A stretch of DNA of 58,151 nt, taken from contig NZ_MKJY01000255.1 of NCBI RefSeq assembly GCF_001942465.1, positions 1 to 58,151 of the forward strand, written 5' to 3'. A program made the translations under genes and the position numbers. The notes beneath the pieces were generated by a model. It had not been told where the DNA came from. It saw only the letters and a program-made list of their open reading frames with translations, and did not search any database. The number at the start of each line of letters is the position of its first letter. The stretch's first letter is position 1. Source of the DNA: Actinomadura sp. CNU-125. Lineage in GTDB: Bacteria; Actinomycetota; Actinomycetes; Streptosporangiales; Streptosporangiaceae. Shown piece by piece: positions 3,331-27,551 of this stretch.

Positions 3331-4013
3331 TCAGTCCTTGTCGCGGTACGCCTTCATGAGCTGCGCCTCCGCGTCGTCGAGGTAGGACCGCAGTTCCCGT
3401 TCGGCCGCGTCGTAGTCGGCGGCGGCGAGAAGGTCGTACATCCGCCGGTTGCGGGCAAGGTACGGCTCGTGGAACTCGCGGGGCGACCCCATCTCGTGGA
3501 AGACCAGGCGCATCTCCGCCATCAGGTGGCGGATCATCTCGTCCACCCGGGGGCTGCCGACGAGCGCCGCGACGGCGCGGTGGAAGCGGATGTCGGCGGT
3601 GCCGACGTCCGGCCAGCGGGCGGCGGCGGCCGCGGCCTCGCCGTCCTCGACGGCCGCGCGGACGCGGTCGAGCGCGTCCCGTTCGGCGCGGGGGCGCAGC
3701 GGACGCCCTCGGACTCCAGGATCCGCCGCACCCGGTACAGGTCGGACAGCCCGTCGGCGCCGACCCGCCGGACGAACACGCCGCGGTTGAACTCGTGGAC
3801 GAGCAGCCGCTCCTGGACGAGCAGGCGGAACGCCTCGCGCATCGTGTTGCGCGAGACCTTGGCGGCACGGCACAGGTCCTCTTCGGGGAGCCGGGCCCCG
3901 GGGACGAGCGCGCCGTCGGTGATCTGGTCGCGGAGCAGGTCGGCGACCCGGGCGGCGGTGCTGGAGCGGTCCAGCTCGTGGCGGGCCGCCGCGATGTCAT
4001 CGAGCCACGTCAC
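3331..4013 (-). CDS. GntR-family (FCD domain) regulator of the NRAMP-pxpBC-ycsI operon, frame broken
   Basis: Two overlapping frames together make one FCD-type GntR protein. The HTH part reads SSTAARVADLLRDQITDGALVPGARLPEEDLCRAAKVS in pieces, then RNTMREAFRLLVQERLL; after LESEGVR near 3700 the frame shifts and continues AERDALDRVRAAVEDGE through FHRAVAALVGSPRVDEM to the stop. One missing base in the GC run near 3690-3705 would join them. The start is uncertain: GTG 4013 leaves the operator at 4063-4079 free, while the in-frame TTG 4076 would put the start codon inside that palindrome with no usable ribosome site. It faces the NRAMP operon divergently. Confidence 0.75.
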
Positions 4014-4062
4014 GAGATCAGCGTAGCGCACGGCGAGAGAAATGTCGGACCAGGGGATTGCT

Positions 4063-4079
4063 GGATTGTTGAACAATCC
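4063..4079. promoter_or_regulatory. FCD/GntR-type operator before the NRAMP-pxpBC operon
   Basis: GGATTGTTGAACAATCC is an odd-length palindrome with 8-bp arms around one central base. Its core, TTGTTGAACAA, matches the known FadR/FCD-class pattern of GT and AC spaced by three bases. It lies between the divergent GntR regulator and the NRAMP-like gene, 41 bp before the latter's ATG. Autoregulation and control of the operon are inferred from position. Confidence 0.65.
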
Positions 4080-4119
4080 TTACTCTGACGGAAAGCCGAA
4101 ACCCCCGAAGGGCCAGATC

Positions 4120-5348
4120 ATGACCGACTCCACCACCGTGGACGCCACCCCGGCGCCGCCCGACCGATCCCGGCGCGGCGCACTCGTCGGCGCCATGTTC
4201 CTGATGGCGACCAGCGCCATCGGCCCCGGTTTCATCACCCAGACCACCGTGTTCACCGCCCAGCTCGGCGCCGCGATGGCTTTCGCGATCGTCGTGTCGG
4301 TGCTGGTGGACATCGCGATCCAGCTCAACGTGTGGCGCGTCGTCGGCGTCTCCGGCAAGCGCGCCCAGGAACTCGGCAACAAGGTCGTGCCCGGCGGCGG
4401 TTACGCGCTGGCGGCACTGGACGTCTTCGGCGGCCTCGTCTTCAACATCGGCAACGTCGCCGGGACGGCGCTCGGGCTGAACGCGCTGTTCGGCCTCGAC
4501 GTCAAGATCGGCGGGGCGCTCTCCGCGCTCGTCGCCATCGCGATCTTCCTGAGCAAGCGGGCCGGCGTCGCGATGGACCGGATCGTCGTCGTGCTCGGCG
4601 GCGTCATGATCCTCATGACGCTGTACGTGGCGATCGTGTCCGATCCGCCGCTCGGGGACGCGCTGGTGCAGGCCGCCGCGCCCGAGGAGATCGACTTCCT
4701 CATCATCACCACGCTGATCGGCGGCACCGTCGGCGGCTACATCACCTACGCGGGCGCGCACCGGATGATCGAGTCCGGGATCACCGGGCCGAAGCACGTC
4801 AAGCAGATCAACCGCAGCGCGATCACCGGCATCCTGGTCACCGGCGTGATGCGGATCCTGCTGTTCCTCGCGGTGCTCGGCGTCGTCGCGGGCGGCGTGA
4901 AGTTGGCGGAGGCCAACCCGGCGCGTCGGCGTTCGAGCACGCCGCCGGGGAGGCCGGGCTTCGGGTCTTCGGGCTGATCATGTGGTCGGCCGCGATCACC
5001 TCGGTGATCGGCGCGTCCTACACCTCGGTGTCGTTCCTGGTCTCGTTCTCCTCGCTGGTGGAGAAGTACCGGAGCCAGATCGTGGTCGGGTTCATCGCGG
5101 TGTCCACGGTGATCTACCTGTTCATCGGCACCGCCCCGGCGAAGCTGCTGGTCCTGGCGGGCGCCCTCAACGGCCTGATCCTGCCGTTCGGGCTGGCCGT
5201 GCTGCTGTGGGTGGCGGCGCGGCGCCGCGACCTGCTCGGCGGGTACCGGTTCCCGAAGTGGCTGCTCGCGCTCGGCGTCGCCGCCTGGCTGCTGTCGCTG
5301 TACCTCGGCTGGAACGCGCTGTCCGGCCTCGACGAACTCTGGGCGTGA
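4120..5348 (+). CDS. NRAMP-family membrane transporter (YcsG-like), frame broken
   Basis: A polytopic membrane protein of about 410 residues with some 11 hydrophobic segments. It starts [11 protein letters not shown] after GAAGG spaced six bases from ATG 4120. In the first membrane helix the sequence is [13 protein letters not shown], and later [12 protein letters not shown]; neither the DPGN nor the MPH metal-binding motif of true Mn/Fe NRAMPs is present. Near 4918 the frame breaks after EANPA and resumes as [21 protein letters not shown], which one missing base explains. In Bacillus the homologue ycsG lies with ycsF, ycsI and kip genes, the same company as here, so transport of 5-oxoproline or a related acid is more likely than metal uptake (inference). 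Confidence 0.8.
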
Positions 5349-5355
5349 GGCACGG

Positions 5356-5962
5356 GTGCGGATCCTGCCGAGCGGCGACGCCGCCCTCCTGGTCGAACTT
5401 CCCGGCCTGCCGGAGATGCTGGGCCTGTACGCGGCGCTGGCCGCGGCCCCGCCGCCCGGCGTCGCCGACATCGTCCCGGCGGCCCGCACCCTCACCCTCC
5501 TGCTCGACCCCGCCGCGAACCCGGCGCCATCGCGGACGCCGTGCGCACCGCGCGTCCCGTCCCGGCGGCCGGGACCGCCGGCACCGTGGAGATCCCCGTG
5601 ACCTACGACGGCCCGGACCTGGCCGAGGTCGCCCGGCTGACCGGGCTGTCGCCGACGCGGTCGTCGCCGCCCACACCGCCGCGTCCTGGCGGGTCGCGTT
5701 CACCGGGTTCGCACCCGGCTTCGGCTACCTCGACGGCGGCGACCCCCGGCTGGACGTCCCGCGCCGTGCGACCCCGCGGGTGCGCGTCCCGGCGGGGTCG
5801 GTCGGCCTCGCCGGGCGCTTCAGCGGCGTGTACCCGGCCGACTCGCCGGGCGGCTGGCAGATCATCGGGTCCACCCGCGTCCCGCTGTGGGACCTCGACC
5901 GCGACCCGCCCGCCCTGCTCCGCCCGGGCCTGCACGTCCGGTTCGTCCGGGAGCGGCCGTGA
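5356..5962 (+). CDS. pxpB: 5-oxoprolinase subunit PxpB (KipI-like), two frame breaks
   Basis: PxpB works with PxpA and PxpC to open 5-oxoproline to glutamate using ATP; the Bacillus homologue was named KipI. The pieces are [17 protein letters not shown] from GTG 5356, then [26 protein letters not shown], then [30 protein letters not shown] and [17 protein letters not shown] up to the stop. They lie in three frames, with breaks near 5522 and 5650, each consistent with a one-base indel. The [11 protein letters not shown] and AGSVG blocks are diagnostic. The stop overlaps pxpC as GTGA. Confidence 0.85.
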
Positions 5963-6848
5963 AGCGGTTGCTGGACGTGCTGGCCACCGGCCCCCTCGCC
6001 ACCGTCCAGGACCTCGGACGGTACGGGCACGCGGCGCTCGGCGTCGGGACGTCCGGCGCCGCCGACCCCGCGGCGCTGCGGCTGGCGAACCGGGCCCTGG
6101 GCAACCCCGAGGCCGCCGGCAGATCGAGGTCACCTTCGGCGGCCTGCGGATACGCGGCCGCGGCGGCTCGTCTTCGCGATCGTCACCGGCGCCCCGGCAC
6201 CGCTCGTCCTCGACGGGCGCCCGGCCCCGCCGAACACCGTCCTGCACGTCCCGGACGGCGCCGAGCTGCGGCTCGGCGCACCGCCCACCGGGCTGCGCAG
6301 CTACCTCGCGGTGCGCGGCGGCGTCGCCGTCGCGCCCGTCCTCGGTCCGCTCCACCGACACGCTGTCGGGCGTCGGCCCGCCGCCGCTCGAACCCGGCGC
6401 GGTCCTGCCCGTCGGCCCGCCCCCGGACGCCCCGCCGCTGCTGGACGTCCTGCCCGTCGCGCCGCCGCCCGCCGGGACGGTCGAGCTGCGCGCCGTCCCC
6501 GGCCCCCGCGCCGACCGGCTCGTCCCCGGCGCCCTCGACGCCCTGTTCACCGGGGCGTTCGAGGTCACCAGCGAGACCGACCGCGTCGGGATGCGGCTGG
6601 CCGGACCCCGTTTGAACCACGCGGATCGGGGTGAGTTGCCCAGTGAGGGGACGGTCACCGGGGCGTTGCAGGTCCCGCCGTCCGGGCAGCCCGTGCTGTT
6701 CCTCGCAGACCGGCCCGTGACCGGCGGCTACCCGGTCATCGCCGTCGTCGTCACCGCCGACGTGGGACGCGCCGCCCAGGCCCGTCCCGGGCAGCGGCTC
6801 CGGTTCCGTCCGATCCCCGCACCGGACCTCAGGAAGGCATCGTCATGA
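5959..6848 (+). CDS. pxpC: 5-oxoprolinase subunit PxpC (KipA/biotin-dependent carboxyltransferase-like), three frame breaks
   Basis: From GTG 5959 it reads [42 protein letters not shown], the classic opening of the KipA/AHS2 family. Frame breaks near 6117, 6165 and 6340 separate [15 protein letters not shown], then [17 protein letters not shown] through [17 protein letters not shown], then [17 protein letters not shown] and [13 protein letters not shown] to the end. All pieces are in the expected order, so this is one gene of normal size (about 295 residues). It overlaps pxpB and ycsI by four bases each. Confidence 0.85.
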
Positions 6849-7642
6849 ACGAAACCGTCCCCCTCGACCCGGGGGCGCTGACCCCCGAACAGGCGCGCGC
6901 GCTGTTCCGCGCGGGGCTCCGCGTCCCGACCGCCGGCTGGTGCACGGGACGCACGCAGGCGAACCTCATCGCCGTCCCGCGCGACCAGGCGTACGACCTG
7001 CTGCTGTTCGCCCAGCGCAACCCGAAGCCCTGCCCGCTCCTCGAAGTCACCGACCCCGGCGCGGTCTCCGCCCCGATCTTCTCCGGTGACCTGCGCACCG
7101 ACCTGCCCGGATACATCGTCTACGAGCACGGCGAGCCGGTCGCCGAGGTCACCGACGTCACCGAGTACTGGCGCGGCGACCTCGTCTCGTTCCTGATCGG
7201 CTGCAGCTTCACGTTCGAGACGGCCCTGGGCGACGCCGGGGTCCCGATCCGGCACGTCGAGCAGGGCGTCAACGTCCCGATGTACCGGACGAACCGGACG
7301 TGCAGGCGCGCCGGGGAGTTCGGCGGCCCGCTCGTCGTGTCGATGCGGCCGGTGCCCGCCTCCCAGGTCGCCGACGCCGTCCGCGTCACCGCGCGCTACC
7401 CGTCCGTCCACGGCGCGCCCGTGCACATCGGCGACCCGCTCGAACTCGGCATCACCGACCTCGGCGCCCCCGACTACGGCGACGCCGTGGACGTCCGGGT
7501 GGACGAGATCCCGGTGTTCTGGGCGTGCGGCGTCACCCCGCAGGCGGCCGTGGCGGCGTCCCGTCCGAAGTTCGCCATCGGCCACGCGCCCGGCCACATG
7601 GCGATCACCGACGCGCGCGACACCGCCTACCTGGTGCCCTGA
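6845..7642 (+). CDS. YcsI/DUF1445 family putative hydro-lyase (D-glutamate cyclase-like)
   Basis: A 265-residue intact protein of the DUF1445 family, which includes Bacillus YcsI and the hydro-lyase-like part of D-glutamate cyclase (D-glutamate to 5-oxo-D-proline). Diagnostic stretches are [43 protein letters not shown] and the C-terminal [11 protein letters not shown] and [11 protein letters not shown]. The ATG overlaps the pxpC stop (ATGA). Placed next to pxpBC and a NRAMP-like transporter, it suggests a route from D-glutamate or 5-oxoproline to glutamate. The family function is only partly proven. Confidence 0.85.
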
Positions 7643-7677
7643 GCAGGGGACGTTCGCGCCTGTCATAGGCTTGCGGC

Positions 7678-9071
7678 ATGCCGGAGACCGTGGGCCCGGG
7701 CGACCTGCCGGGGGAGCGCTACCGGATCGAGGCGCCGCTCGGCACCGGCGGCATGGCCGCCGTGTGGCGCGCCCACGACCTCGTCCTCGACCGCGCGGTC
7801 GCCGTCAAGGTGCCCCGCGACGACTGGCCGGAGGAGTTCACCCGGCGGCTGCGGCAGGAGGCGCAGGCCGCCGCCGGGCTCTCGCACCCGAACATCACCG
7901 GCGTCTACGACTACGGCGAGCACGATTTCGGCGACCGCGAATCCGGTGAACGCGAATCCGGTGCGCGGCGCGGCGTCCCGTACGTCGTGATGGAGCTGCT
8001 CGACGGGGAGACCCTCGCCGACCGGCTGGCGCGCGGGCCGCTGCCGTGGCGGGAGGCGGCGGCGGTGTGCGCGGCGATCGGGGACGCGCTCGACGCCGCC
8101 CACGCGGCCGGGATCGTGCACCGCGACATCAAGCCCGCGAACGTGTTCCTGACGCCGGTCGGGGTGAAGGTCCTCGACTTCGGCATCGCCTTCACCGGGC
8201 CCGATCCGGCGGGCGGGCCGGTCCTCGGCACCCCCGCCTACACCGCGCCCGAGCTGCTGGACGGCGCGCCGCCGTCCCCCGCCGCGGACGTGTTCTCGCT
8301 CGGCGTCGTCCTCCGGCAGGCCCTCACCGGCGGGCCGCCCGAGGCGGCGGCCCTCCCCGCCGACGTGCCCGCCGAGGTCGCCGGGTTGTGCGCGAGCTGC
8401 ACCCGATCCGCGTCCGGGCGTCCGGCCAGCCGCCGCCGAGGCGGCCCGCGTGCTCGCCGGGGCGGCGGGCGTCCGGCTCGCGCGCGTTCTGCCGGGCGAA
8501 CCGCCGCCGCCGTCCCGCGAACGACCGCGCGGGGACGAACCGGACGCGCGTCCTCGACGACCCCCTCCCGGACGAGCCCGCGTCGCCGCGGAAGCCGCTG
8601 GTCAGCGCGGCCGCCGTCGCCGGGGGCGTGGCGCTGGTCGCGGTGGTGCTGGCGACGCTGCCGCGGGACGGACCGTCCACGGGCGCCCCGCCCGCCGGGA
8701 CGTCCGACGGCCCGGCCGCCGTCGCGGACGGCGCGCCGTGCGAGGTCGCGTACCGGGTCGACGGGACGTGGTCGGCCGGCTTCCAGGCGACGGTGCGGAT
8801 CACCAATCTCGGCGCGGGCCCGATCGACGGGTGGCGGCTCGGCTTCGACCTGCCGGACGGGCAGGCCGTCACGCAGCTGTGGAACGGGACGCCGGTGCAG
8901 GACGGCTCCGCGGTGACGGTCACGCCCGCGGGCTGGAACCGGTCGATCCCGGCGGGCGGCACGGTCGAGTTCGGTTTCCTCGGGAGCAACGAGGGCGACG
9001 ACGGCGACGAGGGCGACGAGGGCGACGGGACCCCCGAGGGGTTCACGCTGAACGGCTCGCGGTGCCGCTGA
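7678..9071 (+). CDS. Membrane Ser/Thr protein kinase with extracellular CBM2 cellulose-binding domain, two frame breaks
   Basis: Residues 1-270 are a Hanks-type kinase with the glycine loop LGTGGMAAVWRA, ATP-binding lysine 44 in AVAVKV, catalytic Asp150 in HRDIKPAN and Asp168 in DFG. A small repeat (GDRESGERESGARRG) sits near residues 85-99. After CASCT the frame shifts near 8425 (AEAARVLAGAAGVRLARVL) and again near 8545 (TRVLDDPLPDEPASP), then comes a single membrane helix (LVSAAAVAGGVALVAVVLATL) and a CBM2 domain at 8740-9068. CBM2 hallmarks are the two end cysteines and the three exposed tryptophans in TWSAGF, LWNGT and GWNRSI, plus FTLNGSRC. An acidic Gly-Asp-Glu repeat lies in one loop. 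The outside domain should bind cellulose or xylan, so the kinase may sense polysaccharide for the adjacent sugar operons (inference). Confidence 0.8.
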
Positions 9072-9082
9072 GCCCTCCCGGC

Positions 9083-9096
9083 TGGGAGCGCTCCCA
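9083..9096. promoter_or_regulatory. CebR-type operator upstream of the GH31/GH1 importer operon
   Basis: TGGGAGCGCTCCCA is a perfect 14-bp palindrome identical to the established operator of Streptomyces CebR and Thermobifida CelR. It begins 12 bp after the kinase stop and 241 bp before the binding-protein start. The only other perfect copy I found is before cebE at 27413. Confidence 0.8.
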
Positions 9097-9188
9097 AAGA
9101 AGTTCGGCCAGCTCAACGCCATGATCGAGAAATTGGCATGGGCCCGCCTATTGTGCGCCGTCCGATCCCACGGCTAGCATCCCGGCAA

Positions 9189-9226
9189 TCGAAACGCTTC
9201 GACGAGCGAATCGAAGCGCTTCGATT
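9189..9226. promoter_or_regulatory. Double LacI operator upstream of the GH31/GH1 importer operon
   Basis: Two LacI-like palindromes lie 22 bp apart: TCGAAACGCTTCGA (9189-9202, one mismatch) and AATCGAAGCGCTTCGATT (9209-9226, perfect, 18 bp). The same 14-bp core TCGAAGCGCTTCGA recurs before the GH3 gene at 17244-17257. The natural candidate to bind them is the LacI protein encoded at 16174-17175 inside this operon. That pairing is inference. Confidence 0.7.
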
Positions 9227-9336
9227 GGAACGAGACAACCCCTCGATCGACCGTTCGCTCAATCCCTCGCTCGAACCCTCGCTCACCCCGCTCCAACTCC
9301 CCGGAACCACTCCGTTCCACCCCCGGAGGAACACCC

Positions 9337-10620
9337 ATGATGAAGGCAGGCAGGGGCGCGACCCTGCTCGCGGCGGTCGCCGCGAGCGCTCTCGCGCTCA
9401 CGGGCTGCGGCGGCGGCGACGCCGAGTCCGACCCGAACGTCCTCAAGCTCTGGCACTACGAATCCCCCGACAGCGCCATGGGCGTCGCGTGGAACGCGGC
9501 GATCAAGGAGTTCGAGAAGACCCACCCGGGCGTCAAGGTCGAGTTCGAGGAGAAGGGCTTCGAACAGATCCAGAAGACCGCCTCGATGGTCCTGAACTCC
9601 GACGACGCCCCCGACATCATGGAGTACAACAAGGGCAGCGCCACCGCCGGGAAGTTGTCCACCCAGGGGCTCCTCGCCGACATGAGCGCGGAGGTCGCGG
9701 AGCGCGGCTGGGACAAGATGATCAGCCCGAACGTCGCCGTGACCGCCAAGTACGACGACAAGGGCACCATGGGCGGCGACAAGTGGTTCGGCATCCCGAA
9801 CTACGCCGAGTACGTCATGGTCTACTACAACAAGGAGCTGTTCGAGAAGCACGGCGTCGAGGTCCCGACCACGATGGCCGAGTTCACCGCGGCTCTCGAC
9901 AAGTTCGTCGCCGAGGGCGTCACCCCGCTGACCAACGCGGGCGCGGAGTACATGGCGCAGCAGTACGTCTACCAGCTCGCGCTCTCCAAGGCCGACCGCA
10001 ACTGGATCAGCAACTACCAGCGCTACACCGGCCCGGTGAACTTCACCGACGACGCCTGGACGCACGGCGCGACCACGTTCCAGCAGTGGGTGGAGAAGGG
10101 CTACGTCGACAAGAACACCGTCGGGCAGAAGGCCGAGGAGGCCGGGGTCGCCTTCATGAAGGGCGAGTACCCGATGATGTTCTCCGGCAGCTGGTGGTTC
10201 GGCCGGGTGAACGCGGAGTCGAAGTTCGACTGGGGCACGTTCGTCTGGCCCGAGGCCGAGTTCACGCTCGGCTCCAGCGGCAACCTGTGGGTCGTCCCGG
10301 AGGGGTCGGAGAACAAGGACCTCGCCTACGACTTCATCAACATCACGCTGCAGAAGAACATCCAGAACCAGCTCGGCAACGCGGGCGGCATCCCGATCGC
10401 GGCGGACCCGAGCGCGATCACCGACGAGAAGTCCAAGAAGCTCATCGCCGACTTCAACGAGCTGACGGAGGGCGACAAGCTCGCCTACTACCCGGACTGG
10501 CCGGTGCCGGGCTTCTATGACGCCCTGGTCGCCCAGTTCCAGAAGGTCATGAACGGGGAGGACCCGAAGGAGTCCCTCGCCCCCCTCCAGACCACCTACG
10601 AGGACGGCCTGCCGAAGTGA
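9337..10620 (+). CDS. ABC sugar importer, solute-binding lipoprotein
   Basis: A 427-residue family 1 extracellular binding protein. The signal peptide ends in a lipobox, ALTGC, with the lipidated Cys at residue 24. The mature part has LKLWHYES, EFEKTHPGVKVEF, DAPDIMEYNKGSA and GEYPMMFSGSWWF, typical of oligosaccharide-binding proteins. GGAGGA lies six bases before ATG 9337. It heads an operon of overlapping genes for two permeases, GH31, GH1 and LacI. No ATPase gene is present, so a shared MsiK-type ATPase encoded elsewhere is expected, as known for actinomycete sugar importers. The ligand is probably a xyloglucan or similar beta-glucan oligosaccharide, judged only from the neighbouring enzymes. 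Confidence 0.88.
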   Translation: MMKAGRGATLLAAVAASALALTGCGGGDAESDPNVLKLWHYESPDSAMGVAWNAAIKEFEKTHPGVKVEFEEKGFEQIQKTASMVLNSDDAPDIMEYNKGSATAGKLSTQGLLADMSAEVAERGWDKMISPNVAVTAKYDDKGTMGGDKWFGIPNYAEYVMVYYNKELFEKHGVEVPTTMAEFTAALDKFVAEGVTPLTNAGAEYMAQQYVYQLALSKADRNWISNYQRYTGPVNFTDDAWTHGATTFQQWVEKGYVDKNTVGQKAEEAGVAFMKGEYPMMFSGSWWFGRVNAESKFDWGTFVWPEAEFTLGSSGNLWVVPEGSENKDLAYDFINITLQKNIQNQLGNAGGIPIAADPSAITDEKSKKLIADFNELTEGDKLAYYPDWPVPGFYDALVAQFQKVMNGEDPKESLAPLQTTYEDGLPK

Positions 10621-11543
10621 GCGGACGGTCGCCCGGGCGGGCCGGCGGCCTCGGCGGCCGGCTCGCCTACCTCCCCTACCTGCTCCCGGGGCTGCTGCTG
10701 TTCGTCGGCGTGATCGGGATCCCGTTCCTGATGAACATCGGGACGAGTTTCACCGAGTGGTCGGGCGTCGGCAGCCCCGAGTGGGTCGGCCTGGAGAACT
10801 ACAAGGAGCTGATGGGGGACGAGAAGTTCTGGTCCTCCTTCCGCAACAACGTCTTCGTCATCATCGGCATGGCGATCGTCCCGACGATCGTCGGGCTGGT
10901 GCTGGCCGGCGCGCTGACCGACCTGATCGACCGGCACTTCGGGTCCCGCACCGCGGCCGTCCTGCGCGCCTGCATCTACCTGCCGCAGGTGCTGCCGGTC
11001 GTCATCGCGGGCGTGGTGTGGAGCTGGCTGCTGGCCCCCGACGACGGCGCGGTCAACGCGCTGCTGGAGGCGGTGGGCCTCGGCTCGCTCGCGCACAACT
11101 GGCTCGGCGACCCGGACACGGCGCTCTGGTCCGTCCTGGCCGTCATGGTCTGGACGCAGATCGGGTTCCCGCTCGTGATCTTCATGTCGGGGCTGCAGCG
11201 GGTCGACCCGTCGCTGTACGAGGCGGCCGAGATCGACGGGGCGTCGTGGGCGCGCCGGTTCTGGCACGTCACGATCCCGCAGATCCGCCCGGAGATCTTC
11301 GTGGTCCTGCTCTGGACGACGATCGCCGCGCTGAAGGCGTTCCCGCAGATCTTCGTCCTCACCAAGGGCGGCCCGGGCGGCGCGACGAACGTGCCGTCCT
11401 ACTACTCCTACGTGAACTTCTTCGACAAGCAGGACGTCGGCTACGGCTCGGCGATCGCGACCGTGCTGACCCTGGTGATCATCGTACTGACCGTCGTCTT
11501 CCTGCGTGCGCAGGGACGTGAGCTGGAGGGGGAGGACCGGTGA
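10617..11543 (+). CDS. ABC sugar importer permease (MalF-type)
   Basis: A 308-residue inner-membrane permease with six predicted helices. It starts at GTG 10617, overlapping the binding-protein stop as GTGA. The coupling (EAA) loop reads LYEAAEIDGASWARRFWHVTIPQIRP, the contact site for the ATPase. FTEWSGVGSPEWVGLENY in the first periplasmic loop is typical of MalF/UgpA-type subunits. It overlaps the second permease as GTGA. Confidence 0.9.
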   Translation: MSGRSPGRAGGLGGRLAYLPYLLPGLLLFVGVIGIPFLMNIGTSFTEWSGVGSPEWVGLENYKELMGDEKFWSSFRNNVFVIIGMAIVPTIVGLVLAGALTDLIDRHFGSRTAAVLRACIYLPQVLPVVIAGVVWSWLLAPDDGAVNALLEAVGLGSLAHNWLGDPDTALWSVLAVMVWTQIGFPLVIFMSGLQRVDPSLYEAAEIDGASWARRFWHVTIPQIRPEIFVVLLWTTIAALKAFPQIFVLTKGGPGGATNVPSYYSYVNFFDKQDVGYGSAIATVLTLVIIVLTVVFLRAQGRELEGEDR

Positions 11544-12430
11544 CCGCGACCCTCGCCAAGCGCACCCGCACGCCGGCCCGCGACCGCCGCGACGCGCCGA
11601 AGCGGCGCCGCCGCGGACCGGGCGCCTACGCGGTGCTGGTCGCGCTGATCGCGATGGCGGGGATCATGCTGATCCCGTTCGTCGTCGTGCTGTTCAACGC
11701 GCTGAAGACCCCGCAGGAGTACTCCTCCAACGGCCCCCTGTCGCTGCCCGAGGGCGTCTACCTGGACGGGCTGCGCGCGTTCTGGGAACGGACCGAGTTC
11801 GGCCAGGTGCTGGTCAACAGCGCCGTCATCAGCGGCTCGGTTGCGGTCCTCGCGGTGCTGCTGTCGGTCCTGAACGCCTACGCGCTCGGCATCGGCCGCA
11901 TCAAGGGGCGCATGTGGGTGCTGGTCCTGCTGCTGCTGGCGAACACGCTGCCGCAGGAGGCGCTGGTCTACCCGCTGTACTACCTGGGCAAGGAAGTCGG
12001 CCTCTACGACACCCGCATCGCGGTGATCATCGTGTTCACGGTGATCCAGAGCGCGTTCGGCACCTACCTGCTGTCGTCGGTGCTGTCGGCGTTCCCGCGC
12101 CCGCTGCTGGAGGCCGCCCGCATCGACGGCGCCGGCCGGTTCCAGATCCTGTGGCGGGTCGTGGTCCCGGTGATCAGGCCGACGCTGCTGGTGCTGATGG
12201 TCTTCTTCTTCGTGTGGACCTGGAACGAGTTCCTGATCCCCATGGTCTTCCTGATCTCCAACGACAACCAGACGGTCTCGGTCGCGCTCGGCGTCCTGCA
12301 GGGCCAGCGGATGATGGACGCCACGATGTCCAGCGCCGCCTCGCTGCTCGGCCTGCTCCCGACCGTCGTCTTCTTCCTCATCTTCCAGCGCACGCTGTCG
12401 CGCGGACTCACGGCAGGAGCGGTCAAGTAA
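11540..12430 (+). CDS. ABC sugar importer permease (MalG-type)
   Basis: A 296-residue partner permease. After a basic N-terminal tail (KRTRTPARDRRDAPKRRRR) come six helices. The EAA loop is LLEAARIDGAGRFQILWRVVVPVIRP, and FVWTWNEFLIPM is the usual MalG-type signature. Start GTG 11540 overlaps the previous stop, and its TAA shares one base with the GH31 ATG (TAATG). Confidence 0.9.
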   Translation: MTATLAKRTRTPARDRRDAPKRRRRGPGAYAVLVALIAMAGIMLIPFVVVLFNALKTPQEYSSNGPLSLPEGVYLDGLRAFWERTEFGQVLVNSAVISGSVAVLAVLLSVLNAYALGIGRIKGRMWVLVLLLLANTLPQEALVYPLYYLGKEVGLYDTRIAVIIVFTVIQSAFGTYLLSSVLSAFPRPLLEAARIDGAGRFQILWRVVVPVIRPTLLVLMVFFFVWTWNEFLIPMVFLISNDNQTVSVALGVLQGQRMMDATMSSAASLLGLLPTVVFFLIFQRTLSRGLTAGAVK

Positions 12431-14778
12431 TGAAGTTCAGCGACGGCTACTGGATGATGCGCGAGGGTGTGCACGCGAGTCATCCGGTGGAGGTCCAGGG
12501 CGTCGACGCCGCACGGGACTCGCTCACCGTGCACGCGCCCGTCCAGCGGGTCCGCCACCGCGGCGACCTGCTGAAGGGCCCGGTGCTGACGGTGACGGCG
12601 GAGTCGCCGATGCCGGACGTCATCGGCGTGACGCTCACGCACTTCGCCGGGGAGCGCTCCCGCGGCCCCGCGTTCGAGCTGGCCTCGGAGTCGCCGGAGG
12701 TCGTCGTGGACGCGCCGTCCCCCGGGGACGCGGCGACGCTGACGTCCGGCGCGCTCACCGTGCGGATCCGGCGGGACGGGACGTGGGGCGTCGACTTCCT
12801 CGCGGACGGGCGGCGGCTCACCGGCAGCGCCCCGAAGGCCGCGGCGATCGTCGACACCGACGAGCGCTGGCCGCACGGGGCCCGGCACTACGTCCGCGAG
12901 CAGCTCGACCTCGGCGTCGACCACTTCGTCTACGGGCTCGGCGAGCGGTTCGGGCCGCTGGCGAAGAACGGCCAGGCCGTGGACGTGTGGAACGCCGACG
13001 GCGGCACGGCCAGCGAGCAGGCGTACAAGAACGTGCCGTTCTACCTGACGAACGCGGGCTACGGGGTGTTCGTCGACCACCCGGGCCTCGTGTCGTTCGA
13101 GGTGGCGTCGGAGGTCGTGACGCGGACGTCGTTCAGCGTCGAGGGCCAGTCGATGCGGTACTTCGTCATCTACGGCCCGACCCCGCGGGAGATCCTGCGC
13201 AAGTACACGGCGCTGACGGGACGGCCCGCGAAGCTGCCCGACTGGTCGTTCGGGCTCTGGCTGTCGACGTCGTTCACGACGTCCTACGACGAGGAGACCG
13301 TCACCTCGTTCATCGAGGGGATGGCCGAGCGCGACCTGCCGCTCAGCGTGTTCCACTTCGACTGCTTCTGGATGCGCGAGTTCCAGTGGTGCGACTTCGA
13401 GTGGGATCCGCGGGTGTTCCCCGACCCGCCCGGGATGCTGCGGCGGCTGAAGGACCGCGGCCTCAAGATCTGCGTGTGGATCAACCCCTACATCGGGCAG
13501 CGGTCGCCGCTGTTCGAGGAGGGCCGCGCGAACGGCTACCTGCTGACGCGCCCGGACGGCGACGTGTGGCAGTGGGACAAGTGGCAGCCCGGCCTCGCGG
13601 TCGTCGACTTCACCAACCCCGAGGCCCGCGAGTGGTACTCGGCGAAGCTCGACGCACTCCTCGAAATGGGCGTCGACTGCTTCAAGACCGACTTCGGCGA
13701 ACGCATCCCCACGGACGTCGTCTACCACGATGGGTCCGACCCAGAGCGCGCGCACAACTACTACACGTTCCTCTTCAACAAGACCGTGTTCGAACTGCTC
13801 CAGAAGAGGCGCGGTGAGGACGAGGCGGTGGTGTTCGCACGGTCGGCCACGGTGGGCGGGCAGCAGTTCCCGGTCCACTGGGGCGGCGACTGCGAATCGA
13901 CGTTCGAGGCCATGGGCGAGAGCCTGCGCGGCGGCCTGTCCCTGGGAATGTCCGGGTTCGGGTACTGGAGTCACGACATCGGCGGGTTCGAGGGCACGCC
14001 CGACCCGGCCCTGTTCAAGCGGTGGGTCGCGTTCGGGATGCTGTCGTCGCACAGCCGCCTGCACGGCAGCCACTCCTACCGGGTGCCGTGGCAGTTCGAC
14101 GACGAGTCGGTCGACGTCCTGCGCACCTTCACGAAGCTGAAGATGCGGCTGATGCCCTACCTCGCGGGCGCCGCGCGGCAGGCGTACGAGGAGGGCGCGC
14201 CGATGATGCGCGCGATGGTCCTCGACTTCCCCGACGACCCCGCCTGCACGCACCTCGAACGCCAGTACATGCTCGGCGACGATCTCCTCGTCGCGCCCGT
14301 GTTCTCGCCGGACGGCACCGTCGCGTACTACGTGCCGGACGGTACGTGGACGCACTACCTGACGGGCGAACGGGTCGCGGGCGGCCGCTGGGTGCGGGAG
14401 ACGCACGGGTTCGAGAGCGTGCCGCTGCTCGTCCGTCCGGGCGCGGTGATCGCGGAGGGCGCGGTCGACGACCGTCCCGACTACGACCACGCGGACGGCG
14501 TCACGCTCCGGGTGTACGAACCGGCGGACGGCGCCCGGGTCGTCACGAAGGTCGGGGACGCGACGTTCACCACCGAACGCGACGGTTCGACCGTCCGCGT
14601 GACGCGCACGGGCACGGGCGCGGGTGCGGGCGCGGGCGCGGGCGCCTGGAACGTTCTTCTGATCAACGCGCGGGCCGCCGCGGTCGAGGGCGGTGCGGCC
14701 GCCGAACATCCGCTGGGCGTGCTCGTCGAGGCGTCCGGCGGCGAAGTCGCCATCACGCTGGAAGAAGGGCAGAACTGA
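12430..14778 (+). CDS. GH31 alpha-xylosidase (YicI-like)
   Basis: A 782-residue intact glycoside hydrolase family 31 enzyme with no signal peptide, so it acts in the cytoplasm on imported sugar. The nucleophile Asp421 lies in KTDFGERIP, the form typical of YicI alpha-xylosidases, and the acid/base Asp487 lies in HWGGDCEST. The GLSGFGYW-like block ([18 protein letters not shown]) and [10 protein letters not shown] also match YicI (772 residues in E. coli). The likely reaction is release of alpha-linked xylose from xyloglucan oligosaccharides or isoprimeverose; alpha-glucosidase activity cannot be excluded. A low-complexity Gly-Ala stretch (GTGAGAGAGAGA) occurs near the C-terminus. It overlaps the upstream permease and the downstream GH1 gene by one base each. 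Confidence 0.88.
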
Positions 14779-16190
14779 TGGGGTTTCCCGAGGGCTTCCT
14801 CTGGGGCACGGCCACGGCTTCCTACCAGATCGAGGGGGCGGCGGCCGAGGACGGCCGCGCGCCGTCCATCTGGGACACCTTCAGCCGCACCCCCGGCAAG
14901 GTGCTGGACGGCGACACCGGTGACGTCGCCACCGACCACTACCACCGGTGGCGCGAGGACGTCGCGGCGATGGCCCGGCTCGGCGTCGGCGCGTACCGGT
15001 TCTCGATCTCGTGGTCGCGCGTCCTGCCCGGCGGCGTCCCCAACCGGAAGGGGATCGACTTCTACTCGCGGCTGGTCGACGAGCTCCTCGACCACGGCAT
15101 CGCGCCCGTCGCGACCCTGTACCACTGGGACCTCCCGCAGGACATCGAGGACGCCGGCGGCTGGCCCGCCCGCGACACCGCGAACCGCTTCGCCGACTAC
15201 GCCGAACGGCTGGGGCGGGCCCTGGGCGACCGCGTCCACACCTGGACGACGCTGAACGAGCCGTGGTGCTCGGCGTTCCTCGGCTACGCGGCCGGGGTGC
15301 ACGCGCCCGGCCGCACCGATCCGGTCGACGCGCTGAAGGCCGCGCACCACCTCAACCTGGCGCACGGCATGGCGAACCGGGCGTTGCGCGAGGTCGTGGC
15401 GCCGTCCGCGCTGCACTCGGTCACCCTGAACCTGCACCACCTGCGCGGCGAGGACGAGGCCGTCCGGCGGGTGGACGCCGTGTCGAACCGGGTGTTCCTC
15501 GACCCGATGCTCGGCCGCGGCTACCCGGGCGACCTCAAGAGCGACACCGCCGACCTGACCGACTGGTCGTTCGTCCGCGACGGCGACGAGGAGACGATCG
15601 CCGCGCCGCTGGACGTCCTCGGCGTGAACTACTACTCGCCGACCCTCGTCCGGACCTACGACGGGACGTCCCCGCGCGAGTACGCCGACGGGCACCGGCA
15701 GGGCGCGGCGACGCCGTTCGTCGGCTGCGACGACGTCGAGTTCGCCGTGCAGCCCGGCCCGTACACCGCGATGGGCTGGCCGATCGACGCGACCGGCATG
15801 GACGAGCTGCTCCTGCGGCTGCACCGCGAGTACCCGGGCGTCCCGCTGATGGTGACCGAGAACGGCGCCGCGTTCGACGACGAGGTCGCCGCGGACGGCG
15901 GCGTCCGGGACGCGCGCCGCGTCGCGTACCTGCGCGACCACATCGCCGCCGTCGGGCGCGCGATCGGCGCGGGCGCGGACGTCCGGGGCTATTTCGCCTG
16001 GTCGCTGCTGGACAACTTCGAATGGGCCTACGGCTACTCGAAGCGCTTCGGCATCATCCGCGTCGACTACCCGACCGGCGAGCGGACGTGGAAGGACAGC
16101 GCGTTCTGGTATCGCGACACGATCGCGGCGAACGGGGCTAAGATCAACGACCCGGACGACGACGGGACGGTCCGTGGTCAAGATCACTGA
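14778..16190 (+). CDS. GH1 beta-glucosidase, operon copy
   Basis: A 470-residue family 1 beta-glucosidase, cytoplasmic. The N-terminal signature is [15 protein letters not shown]; acid/base Glu161 is in TLNEPW and nucleophile Glu361 in VTENGA. The [14 protein letters not shown] block completes the family pattern. It starts at ATG 14778, sharing one base with the GH31 stop (TGATG), and its end overlaps the LacI start by 17 bases. Next to an alpha-xylosidase it would remove beta-glucose from trimmed oligosaccharides. It is a paralogue of the enzyme at 22609-24030. Confidence 0.92.
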
Positions 16191-17175
16191 CGTGGCGCGG
16201 CACGCGGGCGTGTCGCCGAGCACCGTCTCCTACGTGCTGAGCGGCAAGCGCTCGATCTCCGAGGAGACCCGGCGGCGCGTCCGCGCCAGCATCCGGGAGC
16301 TCGGCTACCGCCCGCACGCCGGCGCCCGCGCCCTCGCCAGCAGCCGCTCCAACGTCGTCGCGCTGATGCTGCCGCTGCGCAGCGGCGTCGCGGTCCCCGT
16401 CGTGATGGGGTTCGCGACGTCGGTCGTCACCGCCGCCCGCCGGCACGACCACGACGTCCTGCTGCTCACCCAGGAGGAGGGCGAGGACGGGCTGCGCCGC
16501 GTCGCCGACAGCGCGCTCGTCGACGCGCTGATCGTCATGGACGTCCAGTTGCGCGACCCGCGGCTGCCGCTGCTGCGGTCGCTCGACCGGCCCAGCGTCC
16601 TCATCGGGTTCCCCGCCGACGCCGACGACCTGACCTGCATCGACCTCGACTTCCACGCGGCGGGCGCGGCCTGCGCCCGGCATTTGGCGGCGCTCGGGCA
16701 CCGCGAGGTCGCGATGATCGGTTCGCCGCCCGAGGTGTACGAGCGGGAGACCGGCTTCGCGCAGCGGGTCACCGAGGGGTTCGCCGAGGCCGTCCGCGAG
16801 CACGGCATGACCGGCGACGTCCACCCGTGCGAGGCGAGCGCGGACGCGGCGAAGGACCTGGTCGGACGGCTGCTGGCCGAACGCCCGAACCTGACCGGGA
16901 TCCTCGTCCACAACGAGCCGATCGTCGACCCGGTCGTGCGGGCGCTGCGCGCCGAGGGCCGCCGCGTCCCCGAGGACGTGTCGATCGTGGCGATCTGCCC
17001 GGACGAGCTGGCCGAGCACGCCGATCCGCCGCTGTCGTCCGTCGCGATCCCCGCCGTGGAGGTGGGCGGCCGGGCCGTCGAGCTGCTGATGGCCAAGCTC
17101 GACGGCGAGCCGGTCCCGGCCGCGACGCTGCTGCCGCCGACGCTGACGCCGCGCGCCAGCAGCGCCCCGCGCTGA
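16174..17175 (+). CDS. LacI-family regulator of the GH31/GH1 operon
   Basis: A 333-residue LacI-type repressor starting at GTG 16174. The HTH reads [23 protein letters not shown], followed by the hinge helix [17 protein letters not shown] and a periplasmic-binding-type sugar domain with [28 protein letters not shown] and the C-terminal [21 protein letters not shown]. It overlaps the GH1 gene, so it belongs to the same transcript. The TCGAAGCGCTTCGA palindromes before this operon and before the GH3 gene are its likely targets (inference from location). Confidence 0.9.
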
Positions 17176-17299: not shown

Positions 17300-20273
17300 T
17301 TGAACCTCAGCCGAAGCAGACCCCGTTCCCCCGGCCGGCGCAGCCGGCCGCTGACCCTCGTCCTTGCCGCCGCGCTCGCGCGCCCCTGATCCAGGCCGCA
17401 CCGGCGGCGCCCGCGAGACCCTCCCGTTCCGCGACCCCGACCTTCCCGTGGCCGCCCGCGTCGACGACCTGCTCGGGCGGCTCACGCTCGACGAGAAGAT
17501 CGGGCTGCTGCACCAGTACCAGGCGCCGATCCCGCGCCTGGACATCGGCCGGTTCAAGACCGGCACCGAGGCCCTGCACGGGCTCGCCTGGACCACCGAC
17601 GTCCACGCGGACGGCGCCGTCCGCACCGCGAAGGCGACCGTGTTCCCGCAGTCGGTCGGCCTCGGCGCCACCTGGGACCCGGCGCTCATGAAGCAGGTCG
17701 GCGCGGTCGTCGGCGACGAGGCGCGCGGCTACAACAGCGAGAATCCCGACGTCTGGGGCCTGCAGTTGTGGGCGCCGGTCGTCAACCTGCTGCGCGACCC
17801 GCGCTGGGGCCGCAACGAGGAGGGCTACTCCGAGGACCCGCTGCTCACCGGCCTGCTCGCCACCGCCTACGGCCGGGGGATGCGCGGCGACGACCCGGAG
17901 CACCTCAAGACCGCGCCCGTCCTGAAGCACTACCTCGCGAACAACAACGAGTACAAGCGCACCGAGACCTCCTCCTCCCTGAGCCCGCGCAACAAGAAGG
18001 AGTACTACGAGGTCCCGTTCAAGATGCCGATCTCCAATGAGGCGGTCACCGGCATCATGACGGCGTACAACAAGGTCAACGGCCGTCCCGCGACGGTCAC
18101 GCCGGACGCCGCCGGGCTCGTCCGGTCGTGGACGGACGAGACGCTGTTCAACGTCACCGACGCGGGCGGCCCGAACAACCTCATCGGCTCGCAGAACTAC
18201 TTCTCCGACCTGCCCGCCGCCGACGCCGCCACCATCAAGGCGGGCGTCGACAGCTTCACGGTCGACGACACCAAGTCGTCCATCACGATCGGGGCCGTGA
18301 AAGAGGCCCTCGACCGGAAGCTCCTCACCGAGGCCGACATCGACGAGGCCGTCGGGCACATCCTGAACATCCGGATGCGGCTCGGCGAGTTCGACCCGGA
18401 CGGCGGCCCCTACGCCGGCATCACCATGAAGACGGTGAACAGCCCCGAGCACCGCGCGCTCGCCCGCAAGGCGGCCGTGGAGCAGATGGTGCTGCTCAAG
18501 AACGAGAAGAAGGCGCTGCCCGTCGCCTCCGGCGGCAAGGTCGCCGTCGTCGGCCCGCTCTCCGACACCCTCTACACCGACTGGTACTCCGGCGCCCTCC
18601 CGTACGAGGTCACCCCGCTCGACGGCGTCCGCGCCCGGGCCGGTGCGGAGAACGTCACCACCAGCGAGGGCGTCGACCGCATCGCGCTCAAGGACGTCCG
18701 GACGGGCGAGTACGTCGCGGGCGGTACCGGCGCGGACGGCGCCGTCCTCAAGACCGGCCCGACCACGCCGGACGCCACGACCCAGTTCGACGTCTTCGAC
18801 TGGGGCCAGGGGATCGTGACCCTGCGCAGCGTCGCGAACGGCAAGACCGTCGGCCGTCACAACTGGGGTTCGAACCTGTCGAACAGCCAGGCGCAGCCGA
18901 ACGGCTGGTTCGTCCAGGAGATGTTCGAGCTGGAGCAGCAGTCCGACGGCAATCACCTGCTGCGCTACGCGGGCTACGAGAACCCGGCCGACGCCTACGT
19001 CCGGGTGCTCGACGACGGCACCCTCGCCCTCGCCGCGAAGGCCGACGCGACGCCGTTCGCCAAGGACGTCGTCAGCAGCGGCACCGAGTCCGCCGTGGCC
19101 GCCGCGAAGCAGGCCGACACCGCCGTCGTCGTGGTCGGCAGCATGCCGTTCATCAACGGCCGCGAGGACCACGACCGCACCACGATGGACCTCGCCGAAG
19201 GCCAGCTCGAACTGATCAAGGCCGTCCGGAAGGCGAACCCGAACACCGTCGTCGTCGTGGAGAACAGCTACCCCACCACCCTCACCTGGGCGGAGGCGAA
19301 CGTCCCGGCGATCCTGTGGACGAGCCACGCCGGCGCCGAGACGGGCAACGCGCTCGCCGACGTCCTGTTCGGCGACGAGAACCCGTCGGGCAAGCTGCCG
19401 CAGACCTGGTACCGCTCGGCGGAACAGCTCCCGAGCATCCTCGACTATGACGTCATCGACTCCGACCGCACGTACCTGTACTTCGAGGGCGACCCCCTCT
19501 ACGAGTTCGGGTACGGCCTCTCCTACACCACGTTCGAGTACGGCGAGCCGAAGCTGAGCCGCCGCTCGATGAGCGCGGACGGCACCATCGAGGTCACCGT
19601 CCCGGTCACCAACACCGGGAAGCGCGCGGGCGAAGAGGTCGTCCAGCTGTACACCCACCAGCGGAAGTCCCGGGTGAAGCAGCCGGTCAAGGAGCTGCGC
19701 GACTTCGCCAAGGTCGCGCTCGAACCGGGCGGGACCGAGCGCGTGAAGCTGGAGATCAAGGCGTCCGACCTGGCGTTCTGGGACGTCACGCGGAACAAGT
19801 GGACGGTCGAGCGCGCCCACCACGACGTCCTGATCGGCTCGTCGTCCGGTGACATCCGGGAGCGCGCGAAGATCAACGTCCGGGGCGAGCGGATCCCCGC
19901 CCGCGACCTGTCCGAGCCGACCCGCGCCGCCGACTTCGACGACCACGACGGCATCGTCCTGGTCGACGAGACCAAGACCGACGGCGACGCCGTCGGCGGC
20001 GCCGCGAACGGCTGGATCGAGTTCGCGGGCGTGGACCTCGGCCGCAGCACCGGCGAGATCACCGCCCGCGTGGCGGGCACCGAGGCGGCCACGATCGACG
20101 TCCGCCTCGACGGCCCGGACGGTCCGCGCATCGGCACCCTCGCCGTCCCGTCCACCGGCGGGATCTACACCTACCGGGAGATCACCGCCGACCTGCGCCG
20201 CACCGGCGGCAGGCACGACGTCTACCTGGTGTTCGACGGCGAGACCCGCCTGAGCGACATCACCCTGAAGTAA
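17300..20273 (+). CDS. Secreted GH3 beta-glycosidase with internal beta-trefoil and C-terminal CBM6, signal region frame broken
   Basis: The best start is TTG 17300, preceded by AAGGAG, giving a basic then hydrophobic signal (RSRPLTLVLAAALA). The frame is lost near 17385 and the mature protein resumes as RETLPFRDPDLPVAARVDDLLGRLTLDEKIGLL. The GH3 (alpha/beta)8 domain holds the likely nucleophile Asp at 18159-18161 in NVTDAGG. An insert at about 18660-19050 resembles a beta-trefoil (GQGIVTLRSVANGKTVGRHN, then GTLALAAKAD). The second GH3 domain follows with GYGLSYTTF, a FnIII-like domain, and a CBM6-like module from about 19900 (GWIEFAGVDLG, then VYLVFDG). It probably cuts beta-glucan or xylan chains outside the cell. 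Beta-glucosidase or beta-xylosidase cannot be told apart here. Confidence 0.85.
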
Positions 20274-21535: not shown

Positions 21536-22546
21536 TCAGGCGCTTTCGCGCAGCACCAGGTGCGGCTTCAGGACGACCACCGGCTCGGCGACCGTCTCGC
21601 CGCCGATCCGCGACACCAGCAGCCGCGCCATCTCCACGCCCATCTCCTCCAGCGACTGGTGGACGCTCGACAGCGGGGGGTCGGCGAGGGGGGCGGCGGC
21701 CGAGTCGTCGAAGCCGATCACCGCGACGTCGTCCGGGACGCGGCGGCCCTGCCGGTGCAGGACGCGCAGCGCGCCGAGCGCCATCGGGTCGTCGGCGGCG
21801 AACACCGCGTCCAGGTGCGGGTCCCGGGCGAGCAGCTCCTCGGCGGCGGTGATGCCGCTGGCCTCACCGAAGTCGCCGAACGCGACGCACTCGGGCAGCC
21901 CGGCGGCGGCGAGCGCGTCCCGGTAGCCGGTGAGCCGGTCGATGCCGGCGCCCATGTCCTGCGGCCCGGCGATCGTCGCGATCCGCCGCCGCCCGCCGCT
22001 GATCAGATGGCCGACCGCCTCCCGCGCGCCGCTGCGGTTGTCGACGTCCACGTAGCTGACCGGCGACACCCCCGGCGGGCAGCCGCCGAGCACCGTCGGG
22101 ACGCCCGCCGCCTCCAGCTTCGCGGGCAGCGGGTCCTCGGCGTGCAGCGACGTGAGCAGCACCCCGTCGACGTGCTGCGGGGTGAGGTAGTTCTCCAGCC
22201 GCGCGTACTCGGCGGGGGAGCGGGCCATGGCGAGCAGGAGCTGCAGGCCCGTGTCGGCGAGCCCGTTGCCGATCCCGCGGACGACGCCCGCGAAGTACGG
22301 CTCGCCGAACAGCCGCTGGTCGGACTCGGCGACCACCAGCGCCACCGTGTCGGTGCGCCGGGTGACGAGCGTGCGGGCCGCGCGGTTCGGCACGTACCCC
22401 AGCTCGTCGATCGCCTTCAGCACGGCCTCGCGGGCCTGTGCGCTGACCCGCGGCGACCCGTTGATCACCCGGGAGACCGTGCCGCGGCCCACCCCGGCCC
22501 GCGCAGCGACCTCCTCCAACGTGGGCCGCGTGCTCCTGCCCGTCAT
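21536..22546 (-). CDS. cebR: Cello-oligosaccharide repressor CebR (LacI family)
   Basis: A 336-residue LacI protein whose HTH, RPTLEEVAARAGVGRGTVSR followed by VINGSPRVS, and hinge (YVPNRAARTLVTRRTDTVALVV) are those of Streptomyces CebR. The sugar domain has YVDVDNRSGAREAVGHLISGG and PPLSSVHQSLEEMG. It sits 62 bp downstream of bglC on the same strand, at the end of the ceb operon. CebR binds TGGGAGCGCTCCCA and is released by cellobiose; that exact sequence is at 27413 (cebE) and 9083. GGAGGGGGC precedes ATG 22546. Confidence 0.9.
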   Translation of the reverse strand: MTGRSTRPTLEEVAARAGVGRGTVSRVINGSPRVSAQAREAVLKAIDELGYVPNRAARTLVTRRTDTVALVVAESDQRLFGEPYFAGVVRGIGNGLADTGLQLLLAMARSPAEYARLENYLTPQHVDGVLLTSLHAEDPLPAKLEAAGVPTVLGGCPPGVSPVSYVDVDNRSGAREAVGHLISGGRRRIATIAGPQDMGAGIDRLTGYRDALAAAGLPECVAFGDFGEASGITAAEELLARDPHLDAVFAADDPMALGALRVLHRQGRRVPDDVAVIGFDDSAAAPLADPPLSSVHQSLEEMGVEMARLLVSRIGGETVAEPVVVLKPHLVLRESA

Positions 22547-22608
22547 CCCGCCCCCTCCGTCGATCCTGCTCCGAAACGGTCGGAACCCGCCGTTCACACC
22601 CCGGAATC

Positions 22609-27377: not shown

Positions 27378-27412
27378 CGCGGACCCCTTCCAGTTGTGAT
27401 GTACCTCGTGTG

Positions 27413-27426
27413 TGGGAGCGCTCCCA
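27413..27426. promoter_or_regulatory. CebR operator of the ceb operon
   Basis: TGGGAGCGCTCCCA, perfect and extended by flanking G/C to 16 bp (27412-27427). It is identical to the known CebR site and lies directly upstream of cebE. Confidence 0.88.
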
Positions 27427-27551
27427 CGAAGCAAAGACGGTGATGGCCGTCACTGTCAATCGCCGAGACTGAACCGTTATCGGCCGAATCCGAACCGATC
27501 AGCGTGCCGCACGCCGGGCCCGGCGCCGCCGACGCCGGCCCGACGGACCGC

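Follow-up and report, generated by a model that had tools for sequence, protein, structure and literature searches.

Sensing of solid polysaccharides and soluble oligosaccharides

The RsgI/SigI sensors of C. thermocellum consist of an outer carbohydrate-binding module, one membrane segment and a cytoplasmic signalling part, as set out in the excerpted text of PMC4711584. In Streptomyces, the induction of cellulose use is attributed to soluble cello-oligosaccharides, to which the repressor CebR responds, according to an extract of PMC4898821, which also prints the 14-bp CebR box, TGGGAGCGCTCCCA. We describe here a gene of Actinomadura sp. CNU-125 in which a Ser/Thr protein kinase is joined through a predicted membrane helix to a module of family CBM2; searches of the open-licence PMC literature found no description of such a fusion. 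The window, that is, the whole stretch of DNA analysed, is one entire contig (C255, 58,151 bases); the assembly to which it belongs comprises 9.96 Mb in 603 contigs, with an estimated completeness of 88.45%. Because the kinase is joined to a module of cellulose-binding type and usually lies near sugar-import genes, the best reading of the fusion is likely that of a receptor for solid polysaccharide, with a plant polymer as the likely substrate.

The kinase-CBM2 gene and its reading frames

The gene extends from 7678 to 9071 on the plus strand. Pfam identified a PknB-like kinase in frame 1 between 7678 and 8427 (PF00069, E 2.6e-34, 119.3 bits against a cut-off of 31.7) and a CBM2 in a frame 3 piece that ends at 9071 (PF00553, E 2.5e-30). 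A single continuous frame running from the kinase into the CBM2, which the initial annotation had asked to confirm, is not present in the assembly. Frame 1 reaches a stop at 8916 and does not encode the CBM2, the phase of the third-position GC content shifts between about 8380 and 8440, and a tblastn comparison with an intact ortholog (L009) spreads the gene over three frames, namely frame 1, frame 2 from about 8395 and frame 3 by the motif TRVLDDP. One break is located close to 8395 and the other somewhere within about 8480-8540, so that the doubt already raised over 8400-8560 was well placed. The frame pieces were searched separately, as they stand in the assembly.

The first piece (7678 to approximately 8395, frame 1) holds the glycine loop, Lys44, the HRD Asp150, the DFG Asp167 and the APE motif. 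The second (approximately 8396 to 8500, frame 2, placed by tblastn with L009) encodes the end of the C-lobe of the kinase and the beginning of the linker, the kinase end reading ...DPRPGVRPAAAEAARVLAGAAGVRLARVLPGE... in this frame. Lys44 and Asp150 had been named correctly as marks of a complete kinase, the third residue is 167 and not 168, and since the gene lies in three frames the domain is complete only across the first break; in frame 1 the Pfam match covers 196 of 263 positions. Frame 3 continues with the juxtamembrane linker and its T-R-V-L-D-D-P (from approximately 8529 to 8600, by tblastn with L009 and translation), a predicted membrane helix at approximately 8601-8655 and the CBM2 at 8739-9068 (PF00553; 1EXG; predicted fold). 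The helix corresponds to a hydrophobic run in frame 3, to the hydropathy maximum of the orthologs and to helix 305-321 in the structural model of the A. rifamycini protein (L068); a hydrophobic stretch that could form the one membrane helix of the initial annotation thus precedes the CBM2 both here and in the intact orthologs. A scan of 6800-9500 returned no promoters and no terminators and is uninformative at such GC content.

In comparison with A. rifamycini, the low-numbered end of the contig has six broken genes, the kinase-CBM2 gene among them. The others are a 227-aa gene, an Nramp-like transporter gene, the two genes for 5-oxoprolinase-type carboxyltransferases and one situated at the contig edge, each distributed over two or three frames. 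The pieces of these neighbours are 87-97% identical to A. rifamycini in 12 of 13 cases and 72% identical in one; the D-glutamate cyclase gene and the genes compared from 9337 on are whole. The 227-aa, Nramp-like and carboxyltransferase genes lie in the interval 3346-6842, and their division between frames suggests local base-calling errors. The kinase-CBM2 gene is also broken in one other assembly, which is represented by both L026 and L065. Since the neighbouring genes are broken alike and relatives carry the gene intact, its split is most likely due to sequence errors. A break between kinase and CBM2, which the initial annotation had held to count against its own proposal, does exist in the assembly, but the intact relatives and the broken neighbours point to sequence error as its source. 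A programmed frameshift was rejected as the main reading because the neighbours are similarly broken and the relatives are single-frame; the view that the two domains form no real fusion was rejected because intact orthologs exist.

Conservation of the fusion

A query with the CBM2 tail matched 42 of 59 genomes. Of the 30 loci retrieved, 26 were classified: kinase and CBM2 shared a single frame in 20, two were cut by contig ends, two were broken or chimeric, and two encoded other CBM2 proteins. A set of 63 loci of named genomes, which shares genomes with the first, yielded 30 single-frame genes, five cut by contig ends, two broken or chimeric and 26 other CBM2 proteins. Orthologous loci number 37 of the 63, with 30 intact copies, all in records named Actinomadura or Spirillospora. 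At one locus (L027) the frame joined to the CBM2 tail is unrelated and contains several hydrophobic stretches; this locus may be an assembly chimera.

In a protein collection, both Pfam domains were present in 60 of the 70 proteins matched, under generic database names such as "protein kinase domain-containing" and "cellulose binding domain-containing". A second protein search with a query from a deep branch returned 62 matches, again kinase-CBM2 proteins, and those named were all from Actinomadura or Spirillospora. One kinase-CBM2 protein close to the Actinomadura family (P0022) is filed under Mycobacterium tuberculosis and is probably a mislabelled record. A model of helix and CBM2 was matched with at least 162 bits in 47 of 65 congeneric genomes, leaving 18 without. 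In the family-wide survey of 341 genomes, for each of which 11 candidates were scored, the matches listed from the 276 genomes outside the genus reached at most 156.7 bits and did not begin before model position 18, so that the membrane helix is covered little or not at all; further independent fusions may be present among them. On the strength of these comparisons, the kinase-helix-CBM2 arrangement is a conserved gene of Actinomadura and Spirillospora, and misreading is excluded as its cause.

A metagenome protein (P0111) has the same layout as the family: a distant kinase part, a hydrophobic stretch, a Pro/Thr linker and a CBM2. The CBM2 is 44% identical and the kinase part 30% identical over 142 columns; at the HRD and DFG positions it reads HNN and DFS. 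The protein may have arisen as a separate fusion, perhaps with an inactive pseudokinase, and its layout suggests more than one origin of the design.

The kinase domain and the juxtamembrane motif

The catalytic Lys, the HRD Asp and the DFG Asp are invariant in all 32 rows of the ortholog alignment, in which L010 and L068 represent one gene. Together with the Pfam score these residues characterise a Hanks-type Ser/Thr kinase, and the nearest solved relatives are PknA and PknB. Judged by its catalytic features the protein is a Hanks-type kinase and no PASTA kinase; with the PASTA-kinase model NF033483 (NCBIfam PknB_PASTA) the scores of 217.4 and 218.7 bits, the latter for 7678-8394, stay under the cut-off of 450. 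In the full-length model of L068 the kinase and the CBM2 are mostly confident and the linker is not, and the fold-search matches listed are kinases. Pairwise dN/dS ratios range from 0.19 to 0.46 in the kinase and from 0.14 to 0.53 in the CBM2; for the short linker before the motif they range from 0.44 to 1.29, a rough estimate from few codons.

Within this variable linker stands the motif T-[RK]-[VI]-L-D-x-P, with T and P conserved in 32 of 32 rows and L in 31. An Arg before the membrane helix is nearly invariant (R299 of L068). Binding to FHA domains is favoured by a Thr with Leu at position +3. Paralogs for comparison came from one congeneric genome (G006) with 83 kinase matches, of which the 30 with the highest scores were taken; these provided 23 readable kinases and 20 readable activation loops. 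None of the 23 has T[RK][VI]L in the linker, and 16 of the 20 loops contain TxT at the spacing of PknB. This TxT occurs in none of 30 orthologs, seven of which have a T-G-T nearer to the DFG motif. The regulatory phosphosite may thus have shifted from the activation loop to the juxtamembrane segment; loss of TxT could also mean that kinase activity is weak or unregulated. The linkers of L061 (A. fibrosa) and L023 are far longer, and the motif occurs in them in two forms, T-K-I-L and T-E-V-L.

The CBM2 module

The initial annotation had noted three surface tryptophans and terminal cysteines in the CBM2, and these align with 1EXG, the tryptophans as W17, W54 and W72. W17, W54 and both end cysteines are present in all 32 rows, whereas position 72 is Trp in 28 and Tyr in four. 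The closest solved relatives are the cellulose-binding domains of C. fimi Cex (1EXG, 3.5e-25; 6QFS, 3e-23). The predicted fold of the window module, with a mean pLDDT of 91.1, matched 6qfs best among PDB entries, followed by 3ndy and 1exg; an acidic insertion is located near the C-terminus. By the PF00553 match, the three surface tryptophans (W72 being Tyr in 4 of 32 rows), the terminal Cys pair and the modelled fold, the outer domain is CBM2a-like.

Neighbouring genes and gene content

An importer operon with a CebR operator had been noted directly downstream of the kinase gene, and this arrangement was confirmed. The exact 14-bp sequence lies at 9083-9096, 11 nt past the kinase stop. It precedes an operon on the plus strand (operon 1) with genes for a sugar ABC solute-binding protein (9337-10620; PF01547/PF13416) and an ABC permease (10617-11543; PF00528), followed by a GH31 protein of the alpha-xylosidase type (12427-14778, start approximate; NF007940 with 1246 bits against a cut-off of 606; PF01055), a GH1 protein (14784-16190, start approximate; PF00232 with 4.3e-146 on 14022-16190), a first LacI-family regulator (16174-17175; PF00356/PF13377) and a GH3 protein with an Fn3-like domain and a CBM6 (17364-20273; Pfam). 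The presence of these genes behind the kinase suggests the use of xyloglucan or beta-glucosides. A second operon is read from the minus strand. It has a solute-binding protein gene (26160-27434, start uncertain; PF13416), an ABC permease gene (24914-25900; PF00528) and an open frame for a GH1 protein (22609-24846; PF00232 with 6.1e-161 on residues 287-739). A second LacI-family regulator (21536-22738, minus strand, start uncertain; PF00356) is by its position a candidate for CebR, and no NCBIfam model scored above its own cut-off on it. Another exact box is located at the 5' end of operon 2 (27413-27426). Five exact sites occur in the entire assembly and none for the reversed pattern; the other three are at G000:C61:1160, C578:6516 and C578:6562.

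The initial annotation had proposed a search of genomes for kinase-CBM2 fusions beside sugar loci. At least one of the two import operons, counted within about 10 kb and with the non-orthologous L091 and L092 left out, was found at 32 of the 37 orthologous loci: operon 1 lies downstream in 23, operon 2 in 10, and both in one. Neither was found at L046, L054 (a 3-kb contig), L058, L072 and L073. An exact CebR box follows the kinase stop by 1-40 nt at 18 of the 30 intact loci, further boxes lie at 41 nt in L044 and at 896 nt in L056, and L042 has one with a single mismatch. Upstream of the kinase gene, where a box would mark it as a member of the CebR regulon, none with up to one mismatch occurred in the DNA scanned, of which little lies upstream at some loci; in these scans boxes are located solely downstream.

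In three genomes (L066, L067 and L069) an AA10 gene for a lytic polysaccharide monooxygenase (LPMO) stands directly upstream of the kinase-CBM2 gene, identified in L069 by Pfam (7872-8924) and in L066 and L067 from the positions in the matching genomes and by reading. A divergent LacI gene precedes the AA10 gene at L069 and also at L066 and L067. The AA10 gene includes a CBM2 in L067 and L069, and none was found in L066; a Pfam scan of L067:7988-9000 in a frame other than that of AA10 gave no match. Since AA10 stands where many relatives have the D-glutamate cyclase gene and the sugar operon stays, the kinase is linked to sugar use with either set of neighbours.

The window genome, 88% complete, returned no match to GH6, GH48 or GH12 and a single GH5-type match, which resembles an endoglycoceramidase and falls under the cut-off of that model. 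It encodes six other CBM2 proteins. In the same genome a CBM2 is attached to a haem peroxidase (An_peroxidase; L004:276-2096). Here the kinase would serve a species that imports oligosaccharides and perhaps encounters solid polymer only where other organisms attack it. Among congeneric genomes, GH48 is present in 22 of 47 with the kinase versus 2 of 18 without (Fisher p 0.009, without correction for phylogeny), so that 25 of the 47 have the kinase and no GH48. GH6 occurs in 26 of 47 versus 5 of 18, and CBM2-type matches besides the kinase average 8.4 versus 4.6, again without phylogeny correction. AA10, present in 61 of 65 genomes, hardly separates the two groups (46 of 47 versus 15 of 18). 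As far as the GH48, GH6 and AA10 counts indicate, the kinase accompanies cellulolytic gene content and is not confined to genomes that have it.

Alternative explanations

The sugar genes might be incidental neighbours, the kinase belonging functionally with the upstream oxoprolinase and D-glutamate cyclase genes and being unrelated to sugar use. It does follow closely behind the cyclase gene here and in many relatives, and L046 and L058 have the cyclase and neither sugar operon in the stretch examined. However, no cyclase is visible in L066, L067 and L069, where AA10 lies upstream and a sugar operon is still downstream; L047 and L088 show a sugar operon and no cyclase, and L072 and L073 show neither, which makes this explanation very improbable. 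The frame breaks might also be real, leaving a pseudogene or separate short genes in this strain, which would then lack the receptor made by its relatives. The three frames occupied by the gene speak for this, but four syntenic neighbours and the gene at the contig edge are likewise split relative to A. rifamycini, the assembly is in 603 contigs and 88.45% complete, and the gene is broken in one other assembly as well (L026, identical with L065). We therefore consider a loss of the receptor in this strain quite unlikely.

If the protein is made, its module might hold another polymer than cellulose, and the kinase would then be a receptor for chitin or some other beta-glycan. CBM2 modules are known from chitinases as well, and since two of the six other CBM2 proteins of the window genome are GH18 chitinases, chitin is a reasonable alternative ligand, and the chitin-binding CBM2 2RTT is also among the fold matches; the missing GH6 and GH48 matches are in line with it. 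In sequence, however, the Cex domain is far closer to the window module (3.5e-25 versus 1.7e-9 for 2RTT), and the GH31 alpha-xylosidase, GH1 and GH3 genes and the CebR boxes of the neighbouring operons also speak against it, so that a ligand other than cellulose appears rather doubtful. Alternatively, the CBM2 may be an anchor and no sensor: it would hold the kinase against beta-glucan of the cell itself or against a surface that has been colonised, in the service of growth or attachment. Streptomycetes make a cellulose-like glycan at their hyphal tips, and the kinase persists in genomes that have no cellobiohydrolase families. Its repeated location near sugar-import genes and the AA10 gene in three genomes argue against a mere anchor, which we hold to be unlikely.

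A proposed receptor for solid polysaccharide

We consider it somewhat more likely than not that the kinase-helix-CBM2 protein acts as a receptor, which would hold insoluble beta-1,4-glucan outside the cell and would signal inward by phosphorylation. According to the predicted topology, the CBM2 would be exposed at the outside and the kinase would face the cytoplasm. The tryptophan face of the CBM2 would grip crystalline beta-1,4-glucan, and the module would thereby sense the insoluble substrate directly. Clustering of receptors on the solid polymer would raise kinase activity, and within the clusters the kinases would phosphorylate first one another, at the juxtamembrane Thr, and next a partner protein. 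The invariant Thr of T-R-V-L-D-x-P would be autophosphorylated and would offer a dock to other proteins, such as one with an FHA domain, and it would stand in for the TxT switch that the activation loop lacks. The output would tune polysaccharide use in parallel to CebR, which reads soluble cello-oligosaccharides. The initial annotation had placed the kinase as a layer above the LacI repressors, which it may be; the CebR box follows the kinase gene and does not precede it. The more specific proposal, that the Actinomadura protein is a solid-phase receptor switched on by sitting on a cellulose-like polymer, with a phosphorylated juxtamembrane Thr as dock in place of the activation loop, is put forward tentatively. 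If the kinase is switched on the polymer in this way, insoluble food would be felt before soluble sugar reaches CebR. The receptor idea lends itself to direct testing because the family is clean, the tryptophans can be mutated and the juxtamembrane Thr is invariant. If it is true, it would supply a testable ligand for one of the many actinobacterial kinases, of which 83 were matched in a single congeneric genome.

Relation to known systems

With the PknB/PknA-type Hanks kinases the fusion shares the kinase fold, the catalytic residues, the N-terminal position of the kinase, one predicted helix and a C-terminal outer domain. It differs in that PknB/PknA-type kinases have PASTA and other sensors whereas the fusion has a CBM2, scores below the cut-off of NF033483 and lacks the TxT at PknB spacing in 30 of 30 orthologs. 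The window module and the CBM2a of Cex (1EXG) have the predicted fold, the three surface tryptophans and the end cysteines in common; that of Cex is carried by an enzyme, that of the window by a kinase. The box before the neighbouring operons is identical to the 14-bp box of the Streptomyces CebR regulon, as far as the extract of PMC4898821 describes it. The kinase gene, in contrast, has none upstream in the loci scanned.

The layout resembles that of RsgI, with a carbohydrate-binding module outside, a membrane segment and a signalling part inside, the topology being predicted in the present case and that of RsgI taken from the excerpted source. RsgI, however, has an anti-sigma output and CBM3 and other modules, whereas the fusion has a protein kinase and a CBM2. 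The N-terminal anti-sigma domain of RsgI is not among the Pfam matches, and the kinase holds its place; the RsgI-type CBM3 modules 4b97 and 4b96 are weaker fold matches of the window CBM2, at ranks 32 and 43. By analogy of layout the fusion would work like RsgI, yet it is no RsgI. If the receptor reading is true, the protein would be a direct sensor of solid substrate and the kinase counterpart of clostridial biomass sensing by RsgI.
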